A DNA stretch of 26,796 nt from a virus. The translations under genes and the position numbers were made by a program. Of the stretch, positions 1 to 15,809 are shown one piece after another; position 1 is the first letter of the stretch, and every line of letters starts with the position of its first letter. The notes beneath the pieces were generated by a model that made no database searches, had not been told where the DNA came from, and was given only the letters and a program-made list of their open reading frames with translations. The stretch covers positions 1-26,796 of the IMG/VR virus record IMGVR_UViG_3300021599_002224; one strand, written 5' to 3'.

Positions 1-1362
1 TAGCTGTATTCGGGGCTAATCAGGTCGGTAATCAGGTCTGCATCGCCCTGCGGGATAGCTCCGGTCTGCAACCACTCTCGCATCCGCCCCCAAATCTCCG
101 CCCGCTTGTTGTAGTAGGTGTCGCTGTCAGTGGGGCTTGACCCCATCTGCACCTCAATGACCTTGAACCCCCAAGCCTTCAGGTTATCGACCACGCCACC
201 CCCGACACCGTTGCCGTCCACAAACACGGACTGCACCTGGTACTTCGTGGCAAGGTCCGCCACGATGCCTGCAAGTTGAACCGTGTCGATGCCCTTGAAC
301 TTCTGCCATGGGATAGACCGTGCATCGCGTCCCTTGCGAAACGCTATCACCGACTTGTCTTCCCCAAACCGCGCAACGTCCACCCCCATCAACAACGGCG
401 CGCCAGGGTCAGCAATGATGTCCCGTGTCGCCGCGCTGTACGCCTGGTCTTTTCCGATGAACTGGTTCGACCCTTTGTTGGGGAACTCGCCCTTGACCTC
501 CACGCGGGCTTCGTCGCTGTCGTCCCCGTACTGCGCGATGATCTTGTCGAACGTCCCTCTGTCCGTCCCCTCCACCGTCCGCGAGTCGATGTTGCGGCAC
601 CGCCAAAAGTTTCGGTCTTTGTGAAAGCACTCGAAGAACGCACCTGAGTTGCGGCGTGGATTGGAGAACACGAACCAGTACCTGTCAGGGATAGGTTCGG
701 TGAAGAAGCCTTCAGACACTGTCCAAATCGGTTTCGGGATACCGCTGGCCTCGTCCATAATCAGCATCACGCCGTGATGGTTATGGATACCGGCAAAAGC
801 GTCAGGGTTCTCCTCGCTCCACAATTGAGCGGCAGCGTACCAATACCCTGGGTCAATTTTCAAATCGCGTTGAACTGCTGCGCTGAACCACTCTGCGGGA
901 CGCAGCGACATGGCGTGCGTCTCCCACCAGTGCGAATTGATCGCCATCGACACCCACTTGCCCAGCTCGGCCATGGTGCGGGAGCGCAACTGCTGCTCGG
1001 TGTTTGCGGTAACAATCGTTGTGCTGCCGATGCGTGTGGACATGAACCATAGGGTGAGCATCGAAACAAGGGCGGACTTGCCAATGCCTCGGCCTGAGGC
1101 GTCGGCAGATCGCCACATTTCCATCAACGCCCCTTGAGCGCGGCGCATGTCGTTGGCCTGGATGTGCTTCTCCATCTCCTGGAAAGTTTCCAGCTGCCAA
1201 CCCCTCGGTCCCTTGGCGTGTTCAAGGGGTGTGCCTGCCTTGCCCCAGGGAAAAGCGAATAGGGAGAAGTTGAGCGGGGAGTTGTAAATCTCAGGGCTCC
1301 ACAGCTCCAGCATCAACTGTTCTTCGCCTTTGGAGTCGTAGATTGCTTGTTGCTTAGCCATG
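1..1362 (-). CDS. terL: Terminase large subunit (3' end outside window)
   Basis: This is the DNA-packaging motor ATPase and nuclease that translocates phage DNA into the prohead and cuts it. The reverse complement reads from ATG at 1362 and stays open to base 1, about 454 codons, so the C-terminus is missing. A Walker A-like motif SGRGIGKSA lies at about residues 89-97, a Walker B-like MLIMDEASG at about 199-207, and an RNase H-type nuclease start LLMGVDVARFGEDKS at about 323-337. These fit the T4-like large-terminase fold. It lies 128 bp downstream of the small subunit on the same strand, the usual order. No good Shine-Dalgarno sequence is close to the ATG; the nearest purine run (AAAGG) is about 15 nt away, and the space between is filled by the palindrome TGTTACGGTAACA. 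The family call is firm; the packaging strategy (cos or headful) cannot be told. Confidence 0.93.
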
Positions 1363-1374
1363 TTACCGTAACAA
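1362..1374. promoter_or_regulatory. 13-bp palindrome on the terL start codon
   Basis: TGTTACCGTAACA is a near-perfect inverted repeat (TGTTAC/GTAACA around one base). Its last base on the minus strand is the A of the terL ATG, so it covers the expected ribosome-binding region. Six further full copies lie between 4673 and 5417 around the XRE repressor gene, which suggests a repressor operator used at a distance. The binding protein is inferred. Confidence 0.7.
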
Positions 1375-1453
1375 CCTTTCGTGCGAAATTTTTAAAAAAA
1401 TTTGTGCGGCTTAGGTACCCGTTAAAATTGCCCGCCGCGATTTTTTAGGGGTA

Positions 1454-1472
1454 CCCCCCACCCCCACCCCCC
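1454..1472 (-). other. G-run tract in the terS-terL gap
   Basis: On the minus (transcribed) strand this reads G6-T-G5-T-G6. It sits in the 128-bp gap between terS and terL, followed by an A/T-rich stretch. Such a tract could fold into a bulged or two-layer G-quadruplex in DNA or mRNA, but there are only three G-runs, so a standard four-tract quadruplex is not guaranteed. No gene is seen in 1375-1490. Confidence 0.4.
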
Positions 1473-1490: not shown

Positions 1491-1997
1491 CTACGAAAAT
1501 ATATCCGGCGCCGCGTTCTCTTGCGGGTCGTGCGATTGTTTATCGCTTGCGCCGTCTATTATTTTATGTTCAACATCAATGACTTGTGATTGTGCGCTGT
1601 TGTGCTGGTAGCTAACTGGTAGCAGGCGGGCGCGTGCTTCGGCCAGCGTGGTGCCTATATCAATTGTTTGTGTGACGTTTAGATCAATCCTATCACCGTA
1701 CCGCTTGGCGTGCAGTTTTGACGCAAGCCACTGCCTAACCTGAATCTGATTGCGCGCCTTGGCCGCATCGTTCTCCGTGTCGGCTATGGTAAGCGCCTCA
1801 TCAGCTAGAATATCGGCGCGAATTTCGACGGCCCGGGCGTAAGCAATTGCCGCCTGCTTATCACCTCGCAACAGGTGGTGGAATTTACTAATCGTTATAT
1901 CGCATTGTTTTACGGCGTCTTTTAGCGAACTGCCCGCAAGGATGCATTCGATCACGCGATCAACAGTGGTTGTTTTAAGTGTGATTGCCGTATCCAT
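1491..1997 (-). CDS. terS: Terminase small subunit
   Basis: This is the DNA-recognition subunit of the packaging terminase, which binds the pac or cos site and recruits the large subunit. From the ATG at 1997 it has 168 residues. It carries an N-terminal helix-turn-helix-like part (VDRVIECILAGSSLKDAVKQ) and the typical small-terminase run with YARAVEIRADILADEAL, QVRQWLASKLHAKRYGDR and a C-terminal polar tail. A TTG start at 2033 would add 12 residues, but the ATG is preferred because a promoter with a perfect TATAAT ends seven bases before it, implying a leaderless or nearly leaderless message. It is followed by terL on the same strand and is divergent from the gene at 2121. The stretch 1605-1623 inside the gene resembles the integrase arm repeat. 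Confidence 0.85.
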   Translation of the reverse strand: MDTAITLKTTTVDRVIECILAGSSLKDAVKQCDITISKFHHLLRGDKQAAIAYARAVEIRADILADEALTIADTENDAAKARNQIQVRQWLASKLHAKRYGDRIDLNVTQTIDIGTTLAEARARLLPVSYQHNSAQSQVIDVEHKIIDGASDKQSHDPQENAAPDIFS

Positions 1998-2004
1998 AAT
2001 GGGT

Positions 2005-2033
2005 ATTATAACAATTTGTGCGCCGCAAAACAA
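2005..2033 (-). promoter_or_regulatory. Late promoter of terS-terL
   Basis: On the minus strand a -35 TTGTTT (2028-2033) is followed after exactly 17 bp by TATAAT (2005-2010). The predicted transcription start falls on or next to the terS ATG at 1997, so the message would be leaderless. The -10 is consensus; the -35 matches only at TTG. Confidence 0.6.
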
Positions 2034-2046
2034 CGTTGCATTTTGT

Positions 2047-2077
2047 TGTTGCGTTCAGCGCAACATGAGGGTATATT
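2047..2077 (+). promoter_or_regulatory. Rightward promoter with overlapping inverted repeat
   Basis: A -35 TTGCGT (2049-2054), a 17-bp spacer and a -10 TATATT (2072-2077) point toward the gene at 2121. The -35 lies inside an inverted repeat, TGTTGCG (2047-2053) and CGCAACA (2059-2065). A second short inverted repeat (ACCGC/GCGGT) follows the -10. The first repeat could be an operator for a protein different from the one reading TGTTACCGTAACA. Confidence 0.55.
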
Positions 2078-4048: not shown

Positions 4049-4273
4049 GTATCCCGCACTAAAACCCTCAATAGCCCCTTAATCGAACAGGGGAGCCCGC
4101 TGGTAGCTTTTGCCCTTTGTTTGGGGTGTTGGGTAGGGGGACACCCTCAAACCCTATCCCTTGCCTTTCCCCTGTAGCCCTGCAAACACCTTGACGCGCC
4201 CCGTGCACCGCAACCCCCATCGCGGAGGGAGAGACAGCCCCATAACGCCAACGGGGGTGGATCTGCACATCCT

Positions 4274-4483
4274 TCACCCCACTACCCGGCACCCGTCACC
4301 CCACTACCCGGCATCCTTCACCCCACTACCCGGCACCCGTCACCCCACTACCCGGCATCCTTCACCACACTACCCAACATCCTTCACCGCACTACCCAAC
4401 ATCCTTCACCGCACTACCCGCCCGCCTTCAACCAACGCCAGCCTTCACCACACTACCCGCCCACCTTTAACCACCGCCTGCCC
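4274..4483. repeat. 22-bp tandem repeats, about 8 copies
   Basis: The unit begins TCACCCCACTACCCGGCA and is 22 bp long. Copies start at 4274, 4296, 4318, 4340, 4362, 4384, 4406 and 4445, with 17-bp shortened units at 4428 and 4467. The first four alternate in their last six bases (CACCCG, CATCCT), giving a 44-bp higher-order period; later copies have diverged. 22 is not a multiple of three, so the repeat is not coding, and it is about two turns of DNA. Confidence 0.85.
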
Positions 4484-4518: not shown

Positions 4519-4817
4519 CGGGCAAATTAGAAATTAGAACCGAAATAGAACCGAAATAGAAAAAAAAAAATCCCTAAAATCATATACTTATCTATATATT
4601 TCTATATTTCTATATTTTATAGAGTAAATCAGTAAAACATAACGTAGTAACATATTCTCCCACATGGTGGTTTGTTACTGTAACACTCTCCCGCACATTT
4701 TTTCACAGCAACTTGAAAATGAATTAGAAAACTAGAAAAATAGAAACGGTCATATTTTACAACCGCTTAGCTCCTCTATTTTGCTTTCCACCAAATTAGA
4801 AAATTAGAAAAATAGAG
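4519..4817. repeat. A/T-rich direct repeats (unwinding-element-like)
   Basis: AATTAGAAAACTAGAAAAAT at 4722 and AATTAGAAAATTAGAAAAAT at 4794 are near-identical, and a related shorter version lies near 4524. Between them is a stretch of repeated TCTATATTT (about 4592-4620). The whole segment is strongly A/T-rich compared with the flanks. It could be the melting site of an origin. Confidence 0.6.
4673..4685. promoter_or_regulatory. 13-bp palindrome, copy 2
   Basis: TGTTACTGTAACA is a perfect-arm copy with T at the centre. It stands alone 163 bp before the main array. Confidence 0.65.
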
Positions 4818-4835
4818 CGAAACGCCCAAAAACCA

Positions 4836-4848
4836 TGTTACCGTAACA
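4836..4848. promoter_or_regulatory. 13-bp palindrome, copy 3 (array)
   Basis: TGTTACCGTAACA. First of four regularly spaced copies; the next begins 32 bp on. Confidence 0.7.
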
Positions 4849-4867
4849 CTTTTTAACCCCTAAACGA

Positions 4868-4880
4868 TGTTACCGTAACA
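4868..4880. promoter_or_regulatory. 13-bp palindrome, copy 4 (array)
   Basis: TGTTACCGTAACA. The following ACTTTT also follows copy 3 in part, so the flanks are loosely repeated. The next copy begins 33 bp on. Confidence 0.7.
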
Positions 4881-4900
4881 ACTTTTCGCCACCGAAATTT

Positions 4901-4913
4901 TGTTACGGTAACA
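4901..4913. promoter_or_regulatory. 13-bp palindrome, copy 5 (array)
   Basis: TGTTACGGTAACA, the reverse-complement centre of the other copies. The next begins 34 bp on. Confidence 0.7.
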
Positions 4914-4934
4914 TGCAACCGACACCAATCGACT

Positions 4935-4960
4935 TGTTACCGTAACACCACAACGTAACA
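4935..4960. promoter_or_regulatory. 13-bp palindrome, copy 6, plus half-site
   Basis: A full TGTTACCGTAACA (4935-4947) is followed by the half-site GTAACA (4955-4960) just before the 3' end of the XRE gene. Confidence 0.7.
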
Positions 4961-4964
4961 ACTT

Positions 4965-5375
4965 TTAATCTGGCACAGCCAGCGCCGTAACAATCGCCGC
5001 AATTCTCTGCGCATCCGCTTTGGTTAATACAGCAGGCAAGCGGAGGTTGGCTATTGCGCCGCCAGCCAATGGGACGGGAATCTCAACATCCCCCTGCCCG
5101 ACGACAATGGTCGTGTCGCCCCGTGGCGTTTCGAGTGAGGAATATAACGGATGCGCCCCTGCGTGGCGCAGTACCTCGTCAACCTCAACCCCGATATAAT
5201 TGGCTATCTCTGCGGCCTCAGCCACACTCATCTTTCTACGACCGCGCAACATCAGGCTCACCGCAGCTGGGTCCAACCGCAATCTGGCCGCAAGCTGGCG
5301 CTGGGACAATTGTTTGTCCGCAAGGCGATCCTGAAACCATCGCGTGTCTATTCTCTCTTGGACATCAGTGTTCAC
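4965..5375 (-). CDS. XRE-family repressor (CI-like)
   Basis: This is a 136-residue DNA-binding regulator, probably the lysogeny repressor. Residues about 25-45 form a lambda-repressor-type helix-turn-helix (SQRQLAARLRLDPAAVSLML), followed by a fourth helix (MSVAEAAEIANYIGVEVDEV). The C-terminal part (DVEIPVPLAGGAIANLRL) is short and beta-rich, a probable dimerisation module; there is no LexA-type Ser-Lys protease, so RecA-driven self-cleavage is not expected. The start is GTG with GAGGGG seven bases upstream. Palindromes TGTTACCGTAACA lie on both sides of the gene and one is 30 bp upstream of the start, so autoregulation through it is likely. It is divergent from the Cro-like gene at 5564. 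Confidence 0.85.
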   Translation of the reverse strand: MNTDVQERIDTRWFQDRLADKQLSQRQLAARLRLDPAAVSLMLRGRRKMSVAEAAEIANYIGVEVDEVLRHAGAHPLYSSLETPRGDTTIVVGQGDVEIPVPLAGGAIANLRLPAVLTKADAQRIAAIVTALAVPD

Positions 5376-5404
5376 GGTTTACCCCTCGGAGTCAACGCTA
5401 CAGT

Positions 5405-5417
5405 TGTTACCGTAACA
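5405..5417. promoter_or_regulatory. 13-bp palindrome between repressor and Cro-like gene
   Basis: TGTTACCGTAACA sits in the divergent intergenic region, where any leftward repressor promoter must overlap it. This is the classical position of an immunity operator. Confidence 0.75.
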
Positions 5418-5563: not shown

Positions 5564-5896
5564 GTGCCGAAACAGCGCAACCTAGGCCAGTTTGGCCGCC
5601 CCACTTACAATCAAGCCGCCAAGGTAATCGCGCGGTTTGGCTCTGAGGCCAAGCTGGCCAACGCGATTGGCATTAGCAGGATCAGCTGCTTCCGCTGGCA
5701 GTACAAGAGGCCTGCGGGAAGTGACGGGTTAATCCCAACGCTTCAGATCGCCAAGATTAAGGCGGTGGCCAGAGCGGAGGGCATTCTCATCCGCGATGAG
5801 GATTGGGTGCCTGAAATCAACAATTGGGACGGTGAGACGGGCGAGCTGGCCAAGGTTACCCGCAAGCGCAAAACCCTGGCCGAGCTGTTGTCATGA
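5564..5896 (+). CDS. Cro-like helix-turn-helix protein
   Basis: This 110-residue DNA-binding protein begins at GTG with GAGAGGA at good spacing. Residues about 16-46 (AAKVIARFGSEAKLANAIGI, then SRISCFRW) match the small phage Cro/YdaS-like helix-turn-helix pattern, and GLIPTLQIAKIKAVARAEGI follows as in that family. The C-terminal tail is basic. It is the first gene of the rightward replication operon, opposite the XRE repressor, so a Cro or early-switch role is the simplest reading. Its stop overlaps the next start by ATGA. Confidence 0.8.
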   Translation: MPKQRNLGQFGRPTYNQAAKVIARFGSEAKLANAIGISRISCFRWQYKRPAGSDGLIPTLQIAKIKAVARAEGILIRDEDWVPEINNWDGETGELAKVTRKRKTLAELLS

Positions 5897-6426: not shown

Positions 6427-6996
6427 ATGACTAAAATTAAAAACATATACGGCGAAGTGATTTTCACCAGTGCCAATCGTAATGACACGTCCAAGGAGTC
6501 TGTGGAGCAAGCTGTGGAAGCCAATGTTAGTTTGATGAAGGCTAAACTGCGGGATGCTAACCTGCAGGAGGCTAACTTGCGGGGGGCTAAACTGCGGGAG
6601 GCTGACCTGCAGAATGCTGACCTGTGGAGGGCTAACCTGCAGAATGCTGACCTGTGGAGGGCTAACCTGCAGAATGCTGACCTGCGGGGGGCTGACCTGC
6701 AGGACGCCCAAATGCAGAGGGCTGACCTGCGGGGGGCTAAACTGCAGGGGGCTAACCTGCGGGGGGCTGACCTGCAGGGGGCTGACCTGGGGGGGGCTAA
6801 ACTGCAGGGGGCTAACCTGCACAATGCAAAAATTACAATAGGAAACAGAGTGTTTACACTTAAGGAGGAAACAAATGTCGCGCCTGAGGTTTGGAAATAC
6901 GGCCCTGTTTTCAGCAAGCTGTACAGAGCGATGCGGGGTTTTGGTGGCCGGCGCATAAAAGCGCCTATTGTAGATTTATTTTTTAGGAAGGACTGA
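6427..6996 (+). CDS. Pentapeptide-repeat protein
   Basis: Residues 39 to about 134 form 19 successive A(D/N/K)LxX pentapeptides, which fold as a right-handed quadrilateral beta-helix. Members of this superfamily include DNA mimics that bind gyrase, but many have no known role. The N-terminus (KIKNIYGEVIFTSANRND) and a C-terminal domain of about 50 residues (FSKLYRAMRGFGGRRIKAPI) are outside the helix. GGAGGA precedes the start. The DNA is a 15-bp repeat, with one 30-bp unit doubled exactly (about 6613-6672), a sign of recent expansion. It is followed by a TGATG-coupled small gene. Confidence 0.9.
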   Translation: MTKIKNIYGEVIFTSANRNDTSKESVEQAVEANVSLMKAKLRDANLQEANLRGAKLREADLQNADLWRANLQNADLWRANLQNADLRGADLQDAQMQRADLRGAKLQGANLRGADLQGADLGGAKLQGANLHNAKITIGNRVFTLKEETNVAPEVWKYGPVFSKLYRAMRGFGGRRIKAPIVDLFFRKD

Positions 6997-12956: not shown

Positions 12957-15809
12957 ATGACTACCCTTCACCTCGACTTTGAAACCTACAGCGCCGCTGA
13001 CTTGCCCGTTGTTGGGCTGGATAATTACGCCAGCGACCCGACAACGGGCGTGCATTGTGTCGCGTGGTGTTTCGGTGATGGTCAGGTGCAGCTCATCGGC
13101 GCGTCCTCGCAAGGTTGGCCGCAGCTACCCGACGAGATAGCGACCCACGTTCGCAACGGCGGCACGGTCGTCGCGCACAACGCGGCCTTTGAGTTGGCGA
13201 TATGGAATAAAGTGTGCGCCCCCAAATACGGTTGGCCGATCCTCAGCCCCAAGCAAATGCGCTGCACAATGGCGCAAGCCTACGCCATGTCGTTGCCAGG
13301 TAGCCTGGAAAAAGCGGCAGCGGCGCTCGGCATTCAGCAGAACAAAGATATGGTCGGCGCCCGCGTGATGATGCAGCTGGCCAGACCAAAACCCGACGGC
13401 ACTTTTTGGACGGCGGAAGACGTGCCTGAAAAATTCCAACGCCTTTACGATTACTGTAAGTCGGACGTCGAGGTAGAACGAGCCATCGACAACCGCATGA
13501 TGCGGCTCTCCGAACAGGAGCAGCACGTCTGGGTTCTTGACCAGTTGATAAACCAACGCGGCATTCGCGTTGACCTGCCCGCCATTCAGAAAGCCATCGC
13601 CATGGTGGAACAAGAGAGGGCGCGGCTCGACAAGGAGATGCTGTGCACCACGGGCGGCGTCGTCGGCAAGTGTTCGGAAGTTCAACTGCTGGTGAAGTGG
13701 ATACGCACGCAGGGCGTGGAGATTAAAGGACTGGCCAAAGCCGACGTTCTCGATGCGCTCACGGGCGAGCTGCCCCAACCTGTGCGCGACGCCCTGGCGC
13801 TGAGGAAAGAGGCGGCCAAGTCTTCGACCGCCAAACTCTTGGCCATGAAGAACCGCGCCAGTCGTGACGGTCGTGTGCGCGGGTGCTTCCAGTATCACGG
13901 CGCATCGACAGGCCGTTGGGCGCATCGCGGTATCCAGCCTGGCAATTTGCCGCGCCCGCGCAAGCTGACCAACGACGACAATCATAACGCACGCCTTGTC
14001 TATCACATCAACGAACTCATCGCCGCAGGTGCGCGTGACGAGCTTGATATTTTGTACGGCCCAGTGATGGACGCTCTGGCTGATAGCGTGCGCGGTATGA
14101 TTATTCCCAACCCAGGCTACGAGCTGGCGGCAGTGGACTTCAGCGCCATTGAAGCGCGGGTGTTGGCGTGGTTGGCGGGGCAGGAAAACGTGCTCGACAT
14201 CTTTCGCACGCACGGCAAGATTTACGAACACGCGGCCAGCGGTATCTATCGCAAGCCTATCGAAGCCGTCACCAAGTCGGAGCGTCAGATAGGTAAGGTC
14301 GCCTGCTTTGGTGCGCAAACGCAAGTGGTGACGAACAACGGCATCAAAGCTATAATCGATGTATTACCGACTGATTTATTGTGGGACGGCGTTGAGTGGG
14401 TAAAGCATTGCGGGGTGGTAGAAAACGGTGTGCAACCGGTTGTTCGTGTGGCAGACACAGAAATGACGCCCGACCATTTGGTGTTGACGGGTCAGGATTG
14501 GACGCCAGCGCAAAGACTTATTTCCAACGCAAGTACCCTCTCCCTAGCATTGGCGACAGGTTCGGAGAACTTACCGTCCTCGGTCTCGATAAGAGGCGCC
14601 GAAACGGACAAACCCGATATTTCATCAAGGTGCAATGCTCCTGCGGCGCAGATCCACACTTTGTTTATGAGGACAATCTGCGAAGGGGCGCGTCAACCCG
14701 GTGCGGCAGATGCGCCAAGAAGAAGGCGGCGCTTTATCGAACGACCCATTACCCATGCGCCAGCATCGTTGCCGATCAGAAGCACAGGAAGCGGCTGCTT
14801 ACTCGCATATCCGCATGTATCAGTCGGTGCCACAATCCCGACAACAAGGGTTACATCCACTACGGGGCGCGGGGAATATCCGTGCACGAGCCGTGGAGGA
14901 AAGACCGAGTGCAATTCCTGGCCTACCTCATCACACTCCCAGGGTGGAACAACCCCGCGCTGGAGTTGGATCGCATCAATGTTGACGCAGGTTATGAACC
15001 TGGAAATCTTAGGTTCATTTCGCGCTCTGCGAACGCTTGCAACAAACGCAAAATCGGAGATTTGCAAGCCAGAATCAGCTGGCTTGAAGCCAGTCTTCGA
15101 CATTGTGAATGCGGGGCCAAGGCACAGGTTCACCATCCTAACTAGCGATGGCCCGCTTATCGTCCACAACTGCCTTGCGCTAGGGTATGGCGGCGGTGTC
15201 GGCGCCTTCCAGTCCATGGCGCGCGCATATGGCGTGAAGGTCGAAGACGCGCTGGCCGACGATATTAAGCGTGCGTGGCGCGACAGCCACCCCCACATCG
15301 TCAGTTACTGGTACGACCTTGAGCGCGCCGCCATTGCTGCTGTCGAGTTGGGCGGTGTGTGCGGAGCAGGTGCGCCTGGACGTGAGGTGCGATTCAAAAA
15401 GAATGGCAGCTTCCTTTGGTGCAAGCTGCCCTCTGGTCGCGTGCTTTGCTACCCGTACCCAGTCATCAAGGAGATTGAAACACCGTGGGGTGAAATGCGC
15501 GGCGCGCTGCATTTCATGTCGGTAAACGGTGTGACCAACAAGTGGGAAGAAACCAAAACCTACGGTGGGTCGTTGGCGGAGAACGTCACACAGGCGGTAG
15601 CCCGCGACCTGTTGGCCGAAGCAATTGTCCGTTTTGAGGAAGAAGGCATCAGCACCGTCATGCACTGTCATGACGAAATCGTTGCCGAAATTAAATCAGG
15701 CTCGATAACATTGGAAGAAATTGAACGCATCATGTGCGTCTCACCGACTTGGGCGGGAGGGCTACCCCTCGCCGCCGAAGGTTACATTGCAACCCGTTAC
15801 CGAAAATAG
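12957..15809 (+). CDS. polA: Family A DNA polymerase with intein
   Basis: This is the phage replicative polymerase with a DEDDy 3'-5' exonuclease. The precursor has 950 residues from ATG 12957 (an ATG at 12948 is also possible; neither has a clear Shine-Dalgarno). Exo I is LHLDFETYS (Asp7, Glu9), Exo II VVAHNAAFE, Exo III YCKSDVE. Polymerase motif A is AVDFSAIEARV at about 390, motif B RQIGKVA joined across the intein to CLALGYGGG, and motif C MHCHDEIV with His905-Asp906. After removal of the 289-residue intein the mature protein is 661 residues, normal for the family. Unspliced protein should be inactive because motif B holds the dNTP-binding Lys and Tyr. Confidence 0.95.
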   Translation: MTTLHLDFETYSAADLPVVGLDNYASDPTTGVHCVAWCFGDGQVQLIGASSQGWPQLPDEIATHVRNGGTVVAHNAAFELAIWNKVCAPKYGWPILSPKQMRCTMAQAYAMSLPGSLEKAAAALGIQQNKDMVGARVMMQLARPKPDGTFWTAEDVPEKFQRLYDYCKSDVEVERAIDNRMMRLSEQEQHVWVLDQLINQRGIRVDLPAIQKAIAMVEQERARLDKEMLCTTGGVVGKCSEVQLLVKWIRTQGVEIKGLAKADVLDALTGELPQPVRDALALRKEAAKSSTAKLLAMKNRASRDGRVRGCFQYHGASTGRWAHRGIQPGNLPRPRKLTNDDNHNARLVYHINELIAAGARDELDILYGPVMDALADSVRGMIIPNPGYELAAVDFSAIEARVLAWLAGQENVLDIFRTHGKIYEHAASGIYRKPIEAVTKSERQIGKVACFGAQTQVVTNNGIKAIIDVLPTDLLWDGVEWVKHCGVVENGVQPVVRVADTEMTPDHLVLTGQDWTPAQRLISNASTLSLALATGSENLPSSVSIRGAETDKPDISSRCNAPAAQIHTLFMRTICEGARQPGAADAPRRRRRFIERPITHAPASLPIRSTGSGCLLAYPHVSVGATIPTTRVTSTTGRGEYPCTSRGGKTECNSWPTSSHSQGGTTPRWSWIASMLTQVMNLEILGSFRALRTLATNAKSEICKPESAGLKPVFDIVNAGPRHRFTILTSDGPLIVHNCLALGYGGGVGAFQSMARAYGVKVEDALADDIKRAWRDSHPHIVSYWYDLERAAIAAVELGGVCGAGAPGREVRFKKNGSFLWCKLPSGRVLCYPYPVIKEIETPWGEMRGALHFMSVNGVTNKWEETKTYGGSLAENVTQAVARDLLAEAIVRFEEEGISTVMHCHDEIVAEIKSGSITLEEIERIMCVSPTWAGGLPLAAEGYIATRYRK
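14304..15170 (+). other. Intein inserted in polymerase motif B
   Basis: This in-frame 289-codon intervening protein element begins at Cys1 (CFGAQTQVV) and ends at HN before Cys+1 (CLALGYGG). Block A is CFGAQTQVVTNNGIKAIIDV, block B DTEMTPDHLVLT with the T-x-x-H motif, block F VFDIVNAGPRHRFTIL and block G GPLIVHN. All residues needed for a standard Cys-type splicing reaction are present. The true Hint halves are only about 72 and 30 residues; the roughly 185 residues between them read as Ser/Thr/Arg/Pro-rich low-quality sequence in this frame, while the DNA there codes an HNH endonuclease in the -1 frame. The Hint call is confident; splicing activity is predicted. Confidence 0.93.
14396..15145 (+). 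CDS. HNH homing endonuclease nested out of frame in the intein
   Basis: The ORF runs 249 codons from a GTG, in the -1 frame relative to the polymerase, wholly inside the intein. Recognisable homology starts at about residue 47: YPLPSIGDRFGELTVLGLDK is the usual N-terminal module of phage HNH enzymes, with a zinc-ribbon pattern CSCG (81-84) and CGRC (103-106). The HNH core is RISACISRCHNPDNKGYIHY, GARGISVHEPW and LELDRINVDAGYEPGNLRFI, then SRSANACNKR. The C-terminal helix IGDLQARISWLEASLRHCEC completes it and stops at 15145. The real start is unclear: GTG 14396 or TTG 14498, both weak. It probably cuts intein-less polA alleles near motif B to drive homing. A frameshift from the polymerase frame is the alternative route of expression; no classical slippery heptamer was seen. 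Confidence 0.85.
   Translation: MGKALRGGRKRCATGCSCGRHRNDARPFGVDGSGLDASAKTYFQRKYPLPSIGDRFGELTVLGLDKRRRNGQTRYFIKVQCSCGADPHFVYEDNLRRGASTRCGRCAKKKAALYRTTHYPCASIVADQKHRKRLLTRISACISRCHNPDNKGYIHYGARGISVHEPWRKDRVQFLAYLITLPGWNNPALELDRINVDAGYEPGNLRFISRSANACNKRKIGDLQARISWLEASLRHCECGAKAQVHHPN

Follow-up and report, generated by a model that had tools for sequence, protein, structure and literature searches.

The window, i.e. the whole 26.8-kb virus record analysed here, comes, judging by its sequence, from a temperate podovirus related to epsilon15. One end holds the 5' part of terL, which matches epsilon15-type terL in tblastn searches and whose start codon (ATG at 1361..1359, minus strand) is backed by an N-terminus conserved in relatives. 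The terS-terL gap, terS and the genes of an XRE-type repressor and a Cro-like protein are also present (Table 1), and the other genes include those for a RuvC-like resolvase, a helicase, a family A DNA polymerase, a primase and an integrase. A 13-bp palindrome, whose symmetry is that of a perfect 6-1-6 dyad, lies at the start of terL.

Table 1. Features of the terminase and repressor regions of the window
Feature	Position	Strand	Basis
terL, large terminase subunit, 5' part, runs off the window	1..1361	-	PHROG 2, E 6e-37
13-bp palindromic operator TGTTACCGTAACA	1361..1373	.	exact match, kept in relatives
Shine-Dalgarno-like GAAAGG of terL	1375..1380	-	sequence
Conserved A/T tract AAATTTTTTTAAAAATTT, possible -10 region	1386..1403	-	comparison with relatives
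GGG-NN-CC box GGGTACCTAA (GGG-NN-CCC form; GGGGTCCCTACG in many relatives)	1411..1420	-	comparison with relatives
G-run of terS-terL gap	1454..1472	-	sequence, comparison with relatives
terS, small terminase subunit, Sf6 type	1491..1997	-	Pfam PF20901, E 1e-18
Putative terS promoter TTGTTT-17-TATAAT	2005..2033	-	read from sequence
19-bp second-class operator TGTTGC-N7-GCAACA	2047..2065	.	half-site pair count
13-bp operator copy, T centre	4673..4685	.	motif match
Cluster of four 13-bp operators (4836, 4868, 4901, 4935)	4836..4947	.	motif match
XRE-type repressor, 136 aa	4965..5375	-	Pfam HTH_3, E 2e-7; PHROG transcriptional repressors
13-bp operator upstream of repressor gene, repressor-cro gap	5405..5417	.	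motif match
Cro-like DNA-binding protein, divergent from repressor	5564..5896	+	Pfam P22_Cro, E 8e-5, below curated cut-off

Architecture of the terminase locus

The original prediction had put the palindrome at 1362-1374, overlapping the terL ATG and filling its ribosome site. The palindrome is there, one base further left, and the overlap is borne out, the A of the ATG being the only base that the two have in common. However, GAAAGG (1380-1375) lies one base beyond the palindrome, so that what is filled is the spacer between GAAAGG and the terL ATG, not the ribosome site. The string AAAGGTTGTTAC is also found before terL in three relatives (L091, L018 and G015).

Read on the terL strand, the gap contains a module with the order G-run, box, five to eight bases, A/T tract and palindrome, in which the combination of box and A/T tract occurs a single time in each genome that matched the pattern. 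The distance from AAAAT to TGTTAC, counted on the sequences, is 14 bp in 7 of 10 genomes (11, 12 and 16 bp in the rest), and the 14-bp spacing holds whether the next ORF is terL or, as in G003 and G004, an inserted ORF. Since the spacing is fixed even across an inserted ORF, the operator belongs to the module rather than to the terL start codon or ribosome site, so that the proposed action through the latter is not supported, and its overlap with the ATG is a by-product in genomes where no ORF is inserted. The module itself looks older than the operator because recognisable forms of it remain in operator-less distant relatives (terL 52-61% identical). It is possibly a late promoter or a cos/pac packaging site. 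No promoter was listed for the gap in a sigma70 consensus scan, the total for the region being close to that of shuffles, and no canonical -35 was seen there, so that a promoter at this place would need an activator.

Two further observations concern this region. Some of the G-runs of the module (1386-1472 and the gaps of relatives) would be able to form a G-quadruplex. In addition, nuclease-like ORFs were noticed between module and terL, in the gaps of L011 (G004) and L012 (G005) and just before terL in L014 and L190, two of them PD-(D/E)XK-like and two HNH-like by eye.

On the other side of terS, the putative promoter was missed by the consensus scan owing to its weak -35, and an operator of a second class sits between terS and a divergent gene (2121-2477). 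When TGTTRC...GYAACA half-site pairs were counted over the genomes, peaks were found at a gap of 1 (28 cases) and a gap of 7 (21 cases), the half-site TGTTRC being common to both operator classes. The 19-bp class (TGTTRC-N7-GYAACA) precedes terS by 49-121 bp in 11 of 13 genomes, and several genomes also have it at the cro promoter. On these counts, two related operator types seem to control the terminase genes.

Copies of the motif in the window and in relatives

The motif TGTTACNGTAACA is found seven times in the window, six times at the XRE repressor gene (4673-5417) and once at terL. The identity with a repressor-side palindrome more than 3 kb away, which had been claimed from the start, is thus correct, the nearest such copy being 3.3 kb from the terL site. 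The six repressor-side copies (starting at 4673, 4836, 4868, 4901, 4935 and 5405) all lie within 750 bp around the repressor. Four of them, spaced by 32-34 bp, are immediately past its stop codon, while the copy in the repressor-cro gap is at a place that is likewise occupied in G009, G010, G011, G015, L091 and L189. The number of exact copies expected by chance in the window is 0.0008 (order-1 model), the 16 matches with up to three mismatches were reached by none of 100 dinucleotide shuffles, and a perfect site was never seen in 2000 shuffled terS-terL gaps. The window lacks the head/tail part, which could be read piecewise from three contigs (L008, L273 and L278, 97-100% identity over overlaps). 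These near-identical contigs contain no further copies in the head/tail region, and thus none at the late genes outside the window where the original prediction had suggested looking, the sole near match (two mismatches) being within the portal coding sequence. In this species there is exactly one copy away from the repressor region.

Among relatives with a terL 79-85% identical, the motif recurs to different degrees at the homologous place in the terS-terL gap. The site is perfect in G003 and G004, has one mismatch in L091/G016, two in L018/G011 and L189, and three in G015, G009 and G010, the last two being individually weak (p about 0.04). In the others of this group, it is degraded in L188, replaced by longer variants in G008 and G005, and absent in G006. 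Presence in the gap follows the repressor side: of the seven genomes (window included) that have the 13-bp site beside the repressor, every one has a related gap 13-mer, and the homologous place lacks it in each of the four whose repressor-side sequence is another (Fisher 0.003, uncorrected for kinship). A more distant relative (L191:1-92) has a different inverted repeat, ACTTAC-N6-GTAAGT, at the same place before terL, which is perhaps an operator of another specificity; the contig of this relative does not include its repressor.

As for the candidate ligands, the only solved structure matched by the repressor was ClgR, and weakly (E 0.002), and the Cro-like protein, which is 62-66% identical across the clade, matched none. 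A search with nine relatives detected no repressor gene beside cro in G003 and G004.

Proposed repressor control of terL and competing explanations

In textbook lambdoid phages, late genes are under repressor control only indirectly, via an antiterminator. In the phage studied here, the palindrome is probably an operator of its own XRE repressor, through which terL transcription would be shut off in the lysogen. The direct silencing originally predicted stands, for terL in a lysogen, as the likeliest role of the site, in view of the same motif at the repressor and its recurrence in relatives. That the phage repressor binds this late-gene operator, and so affects terL, we infer from co-occurrence. 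The repressor would have a single distant operator, at the point from which terL is expressed and 14 bp past the -10-like AAAAT. Once bound there in the lysogen, the repressor would keep polymerase from initiating at, or escaping from, a putative terL (late) promoter in the A/T module, where the operator would cover about +9 to +21 if transcription starts about 7 bases after AAAAT, and it could also halt polymerase coming from the putative terS promoter (2033-2005). The outcome would be that no packaging ATPase is made in the lysogen. The weakest step of this proposal is the activator-dependent promoter in the gap. A conserved repressor-type operator on terL would put the packaging ATPase under direct silencing by the immunity system, and would provide a simple late-gene switch in the large, mostly uncultured epsilon15-like group.

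The main contrary fact is the perfect gap site in G003 and G004, genomes with no detectable repressor, which disfavours the repressor as sole ligand. The three mismatches in the sites of G009, G010 and G015, like the lack of a canonical -35 and of a listed consensus promoter in the gap, also speak against the proposal. The Cro-like protein, which is conserved in all genomes, could be an additional ligand. It could also be the main one, damping or timing terL in lytic growth rather than in the lysogen, and both the persistence of the gap site in these two genomes and the TGTTRC half-site common to the two operator classes would fit such a role. We nevertheless regard Cro as an unlikely main ligand, since the usual class near cro is the 19-bp one, while the 13-bp class adjoins the start of the repressor and its presence in the gap tracks its presence on the repressor side.

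A different role for the locus, which we hold to be rather unlikely, would have the terS-terL module as the packaging start (cos or pac) and the palindrome as the site of an accessory protein, any effect on terL being secondary. The single occurrence of box and A/T tract per genome, the persistence of the module in operator-less relatives and the insertion of nuclease-like ORFs between module and terL would all be in keeping with this, but contig ends show no pile-up at the module and the motif is identical to the repressor operators. Moreover, an Sf6-type terS suggests headful packaging, for which pac is commonly in or near terS. A combination of packaging and immunity can also be imagined, in which the two operator types with their common half-site (the 19-bp one at the terS promoter and TGTTACNGTAACA on a module that is the packaging start) wire the terminase locus of this phage clade directly into the lysis-lysogeny switch. 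This is similarly doubtful and, if true, immunity proteins would gate the making of terminase as well as the initial cut of packaging.

The proposed direct control of terL by the repressor has also to be set against the stoperators of L5 and other Cluster A phages, of which there are 20-30 per genome, each 13-14 bp long, without dyad symmetry, oriented with transcription and bound by a monomer (PMC6550527). The original prediction had seen a likeness to these sites. On an L5-like reading, the terL site would mainly stop polymerase elongating from the terS promoter and would be part of a dispersed set. Such a function would suit its position within what is likely a terS-terL operon, after a plausible terS promoter and without a canonical promoter immediately ahead of it, and as in L5 there are repressor-type sites outside the immunity region, one of them within a late operon. 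However, the sites are only seven here, six of them clustered around the repressor, and are perfect dyads instead of asymmetric oriented sequences, and there is a single distant copy in the whole species. An L5-like array was rejected because no more sites were found in the contigs from which the remainder of the species was read, and the L5 picture does not fit a phage with one copy off the repressor region, which makes this explanation quite improbable.

That the site acts as a hairpin in the mRNA where terL starts, or is a product of chance, can practically be dismissed: in predicted folds of several relatives GUUGUU does pair with an AACAAC that belongs to the first codons, but the hairpin was rejected since folds are no better than shuffles (z-scores near zero: 0.23, -1.2, -0.2 and -0.2), the site is also found away from terL codons (G003 and G004), and its chance expectation is the very low one given above. 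Rfam and tRNA scans of the window returned nothing.

Precedents in other phages and further features of the window

Repressor sites at several operons, and with them direct repressor control beyond the immunity region, are found in phage P1 (dispersed C1 operators) and phiC31 (conserved inverted repeats), which differ from the present case by their motifs, their repressor families and their larger number of sites. The closest precedent is epsilon15, a Salmonella phage (Uetakevirus) whose terL is 38% identical to that of the window and whose record (AY150271) annotates palindromic repressor sites. One of these annotated sites (12-27) is 20 bp before the terS ATG (at 47), and others precede the portal operon and the tailspike operon or surround the repressor gene. 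The two phages thus resemble each other in having a palindromic site common to the repressor region and the terminase genes. They differ in the motif (ATTACC-N5-GGTAAT in epsilon15, TGTTACNGTAACA here), in the position of the terminase site (before terS, and between terS and terL here) and in the late operons covered, no site being found here before portal or tailspike in the head/tail contigs. In addition, the epsilon15 repressor (198 aa) has no clear similarity to the present one. Given the epsilon15 annotations, having repressor sites directly at packaging genes is not new in kind. The novelty here lies in where the site is (between terS and terL), in its motif, in its attachment to a conserved module and in the presence of a second class of operator at terS.

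Several other features of the window are worth recording. Adjoining the operator cluster is an A/T-rich stretch (4530-4810) with TTAGAAAA/AATAGAAA iterons and, at 4260-4440, there are tandem CCTTCACCCCACTACCCGGCA-like repeats; together these are a possible replication origin. In G003 and G004, both without a detected repressor, iterons of a similar kind lie directly beside cro. The family A DNA polymerase (12957-15809, plus strand) has an insertion at about residues 456-740 that is missing in relatives, starts with CFGAQTQVVT, ends with VHN before C and looks like an intein. Nested in it, out of frame, is an ORF (14396-15145, plus strand) with HNH-like motifs (CHNPDNKGYIHYGARGI), for which Pfam gave no match. 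Finally, a pentapeptide-repeat-like protein built of ADLxxANLxxA units is encoded at 6427-6996 (plus strand).
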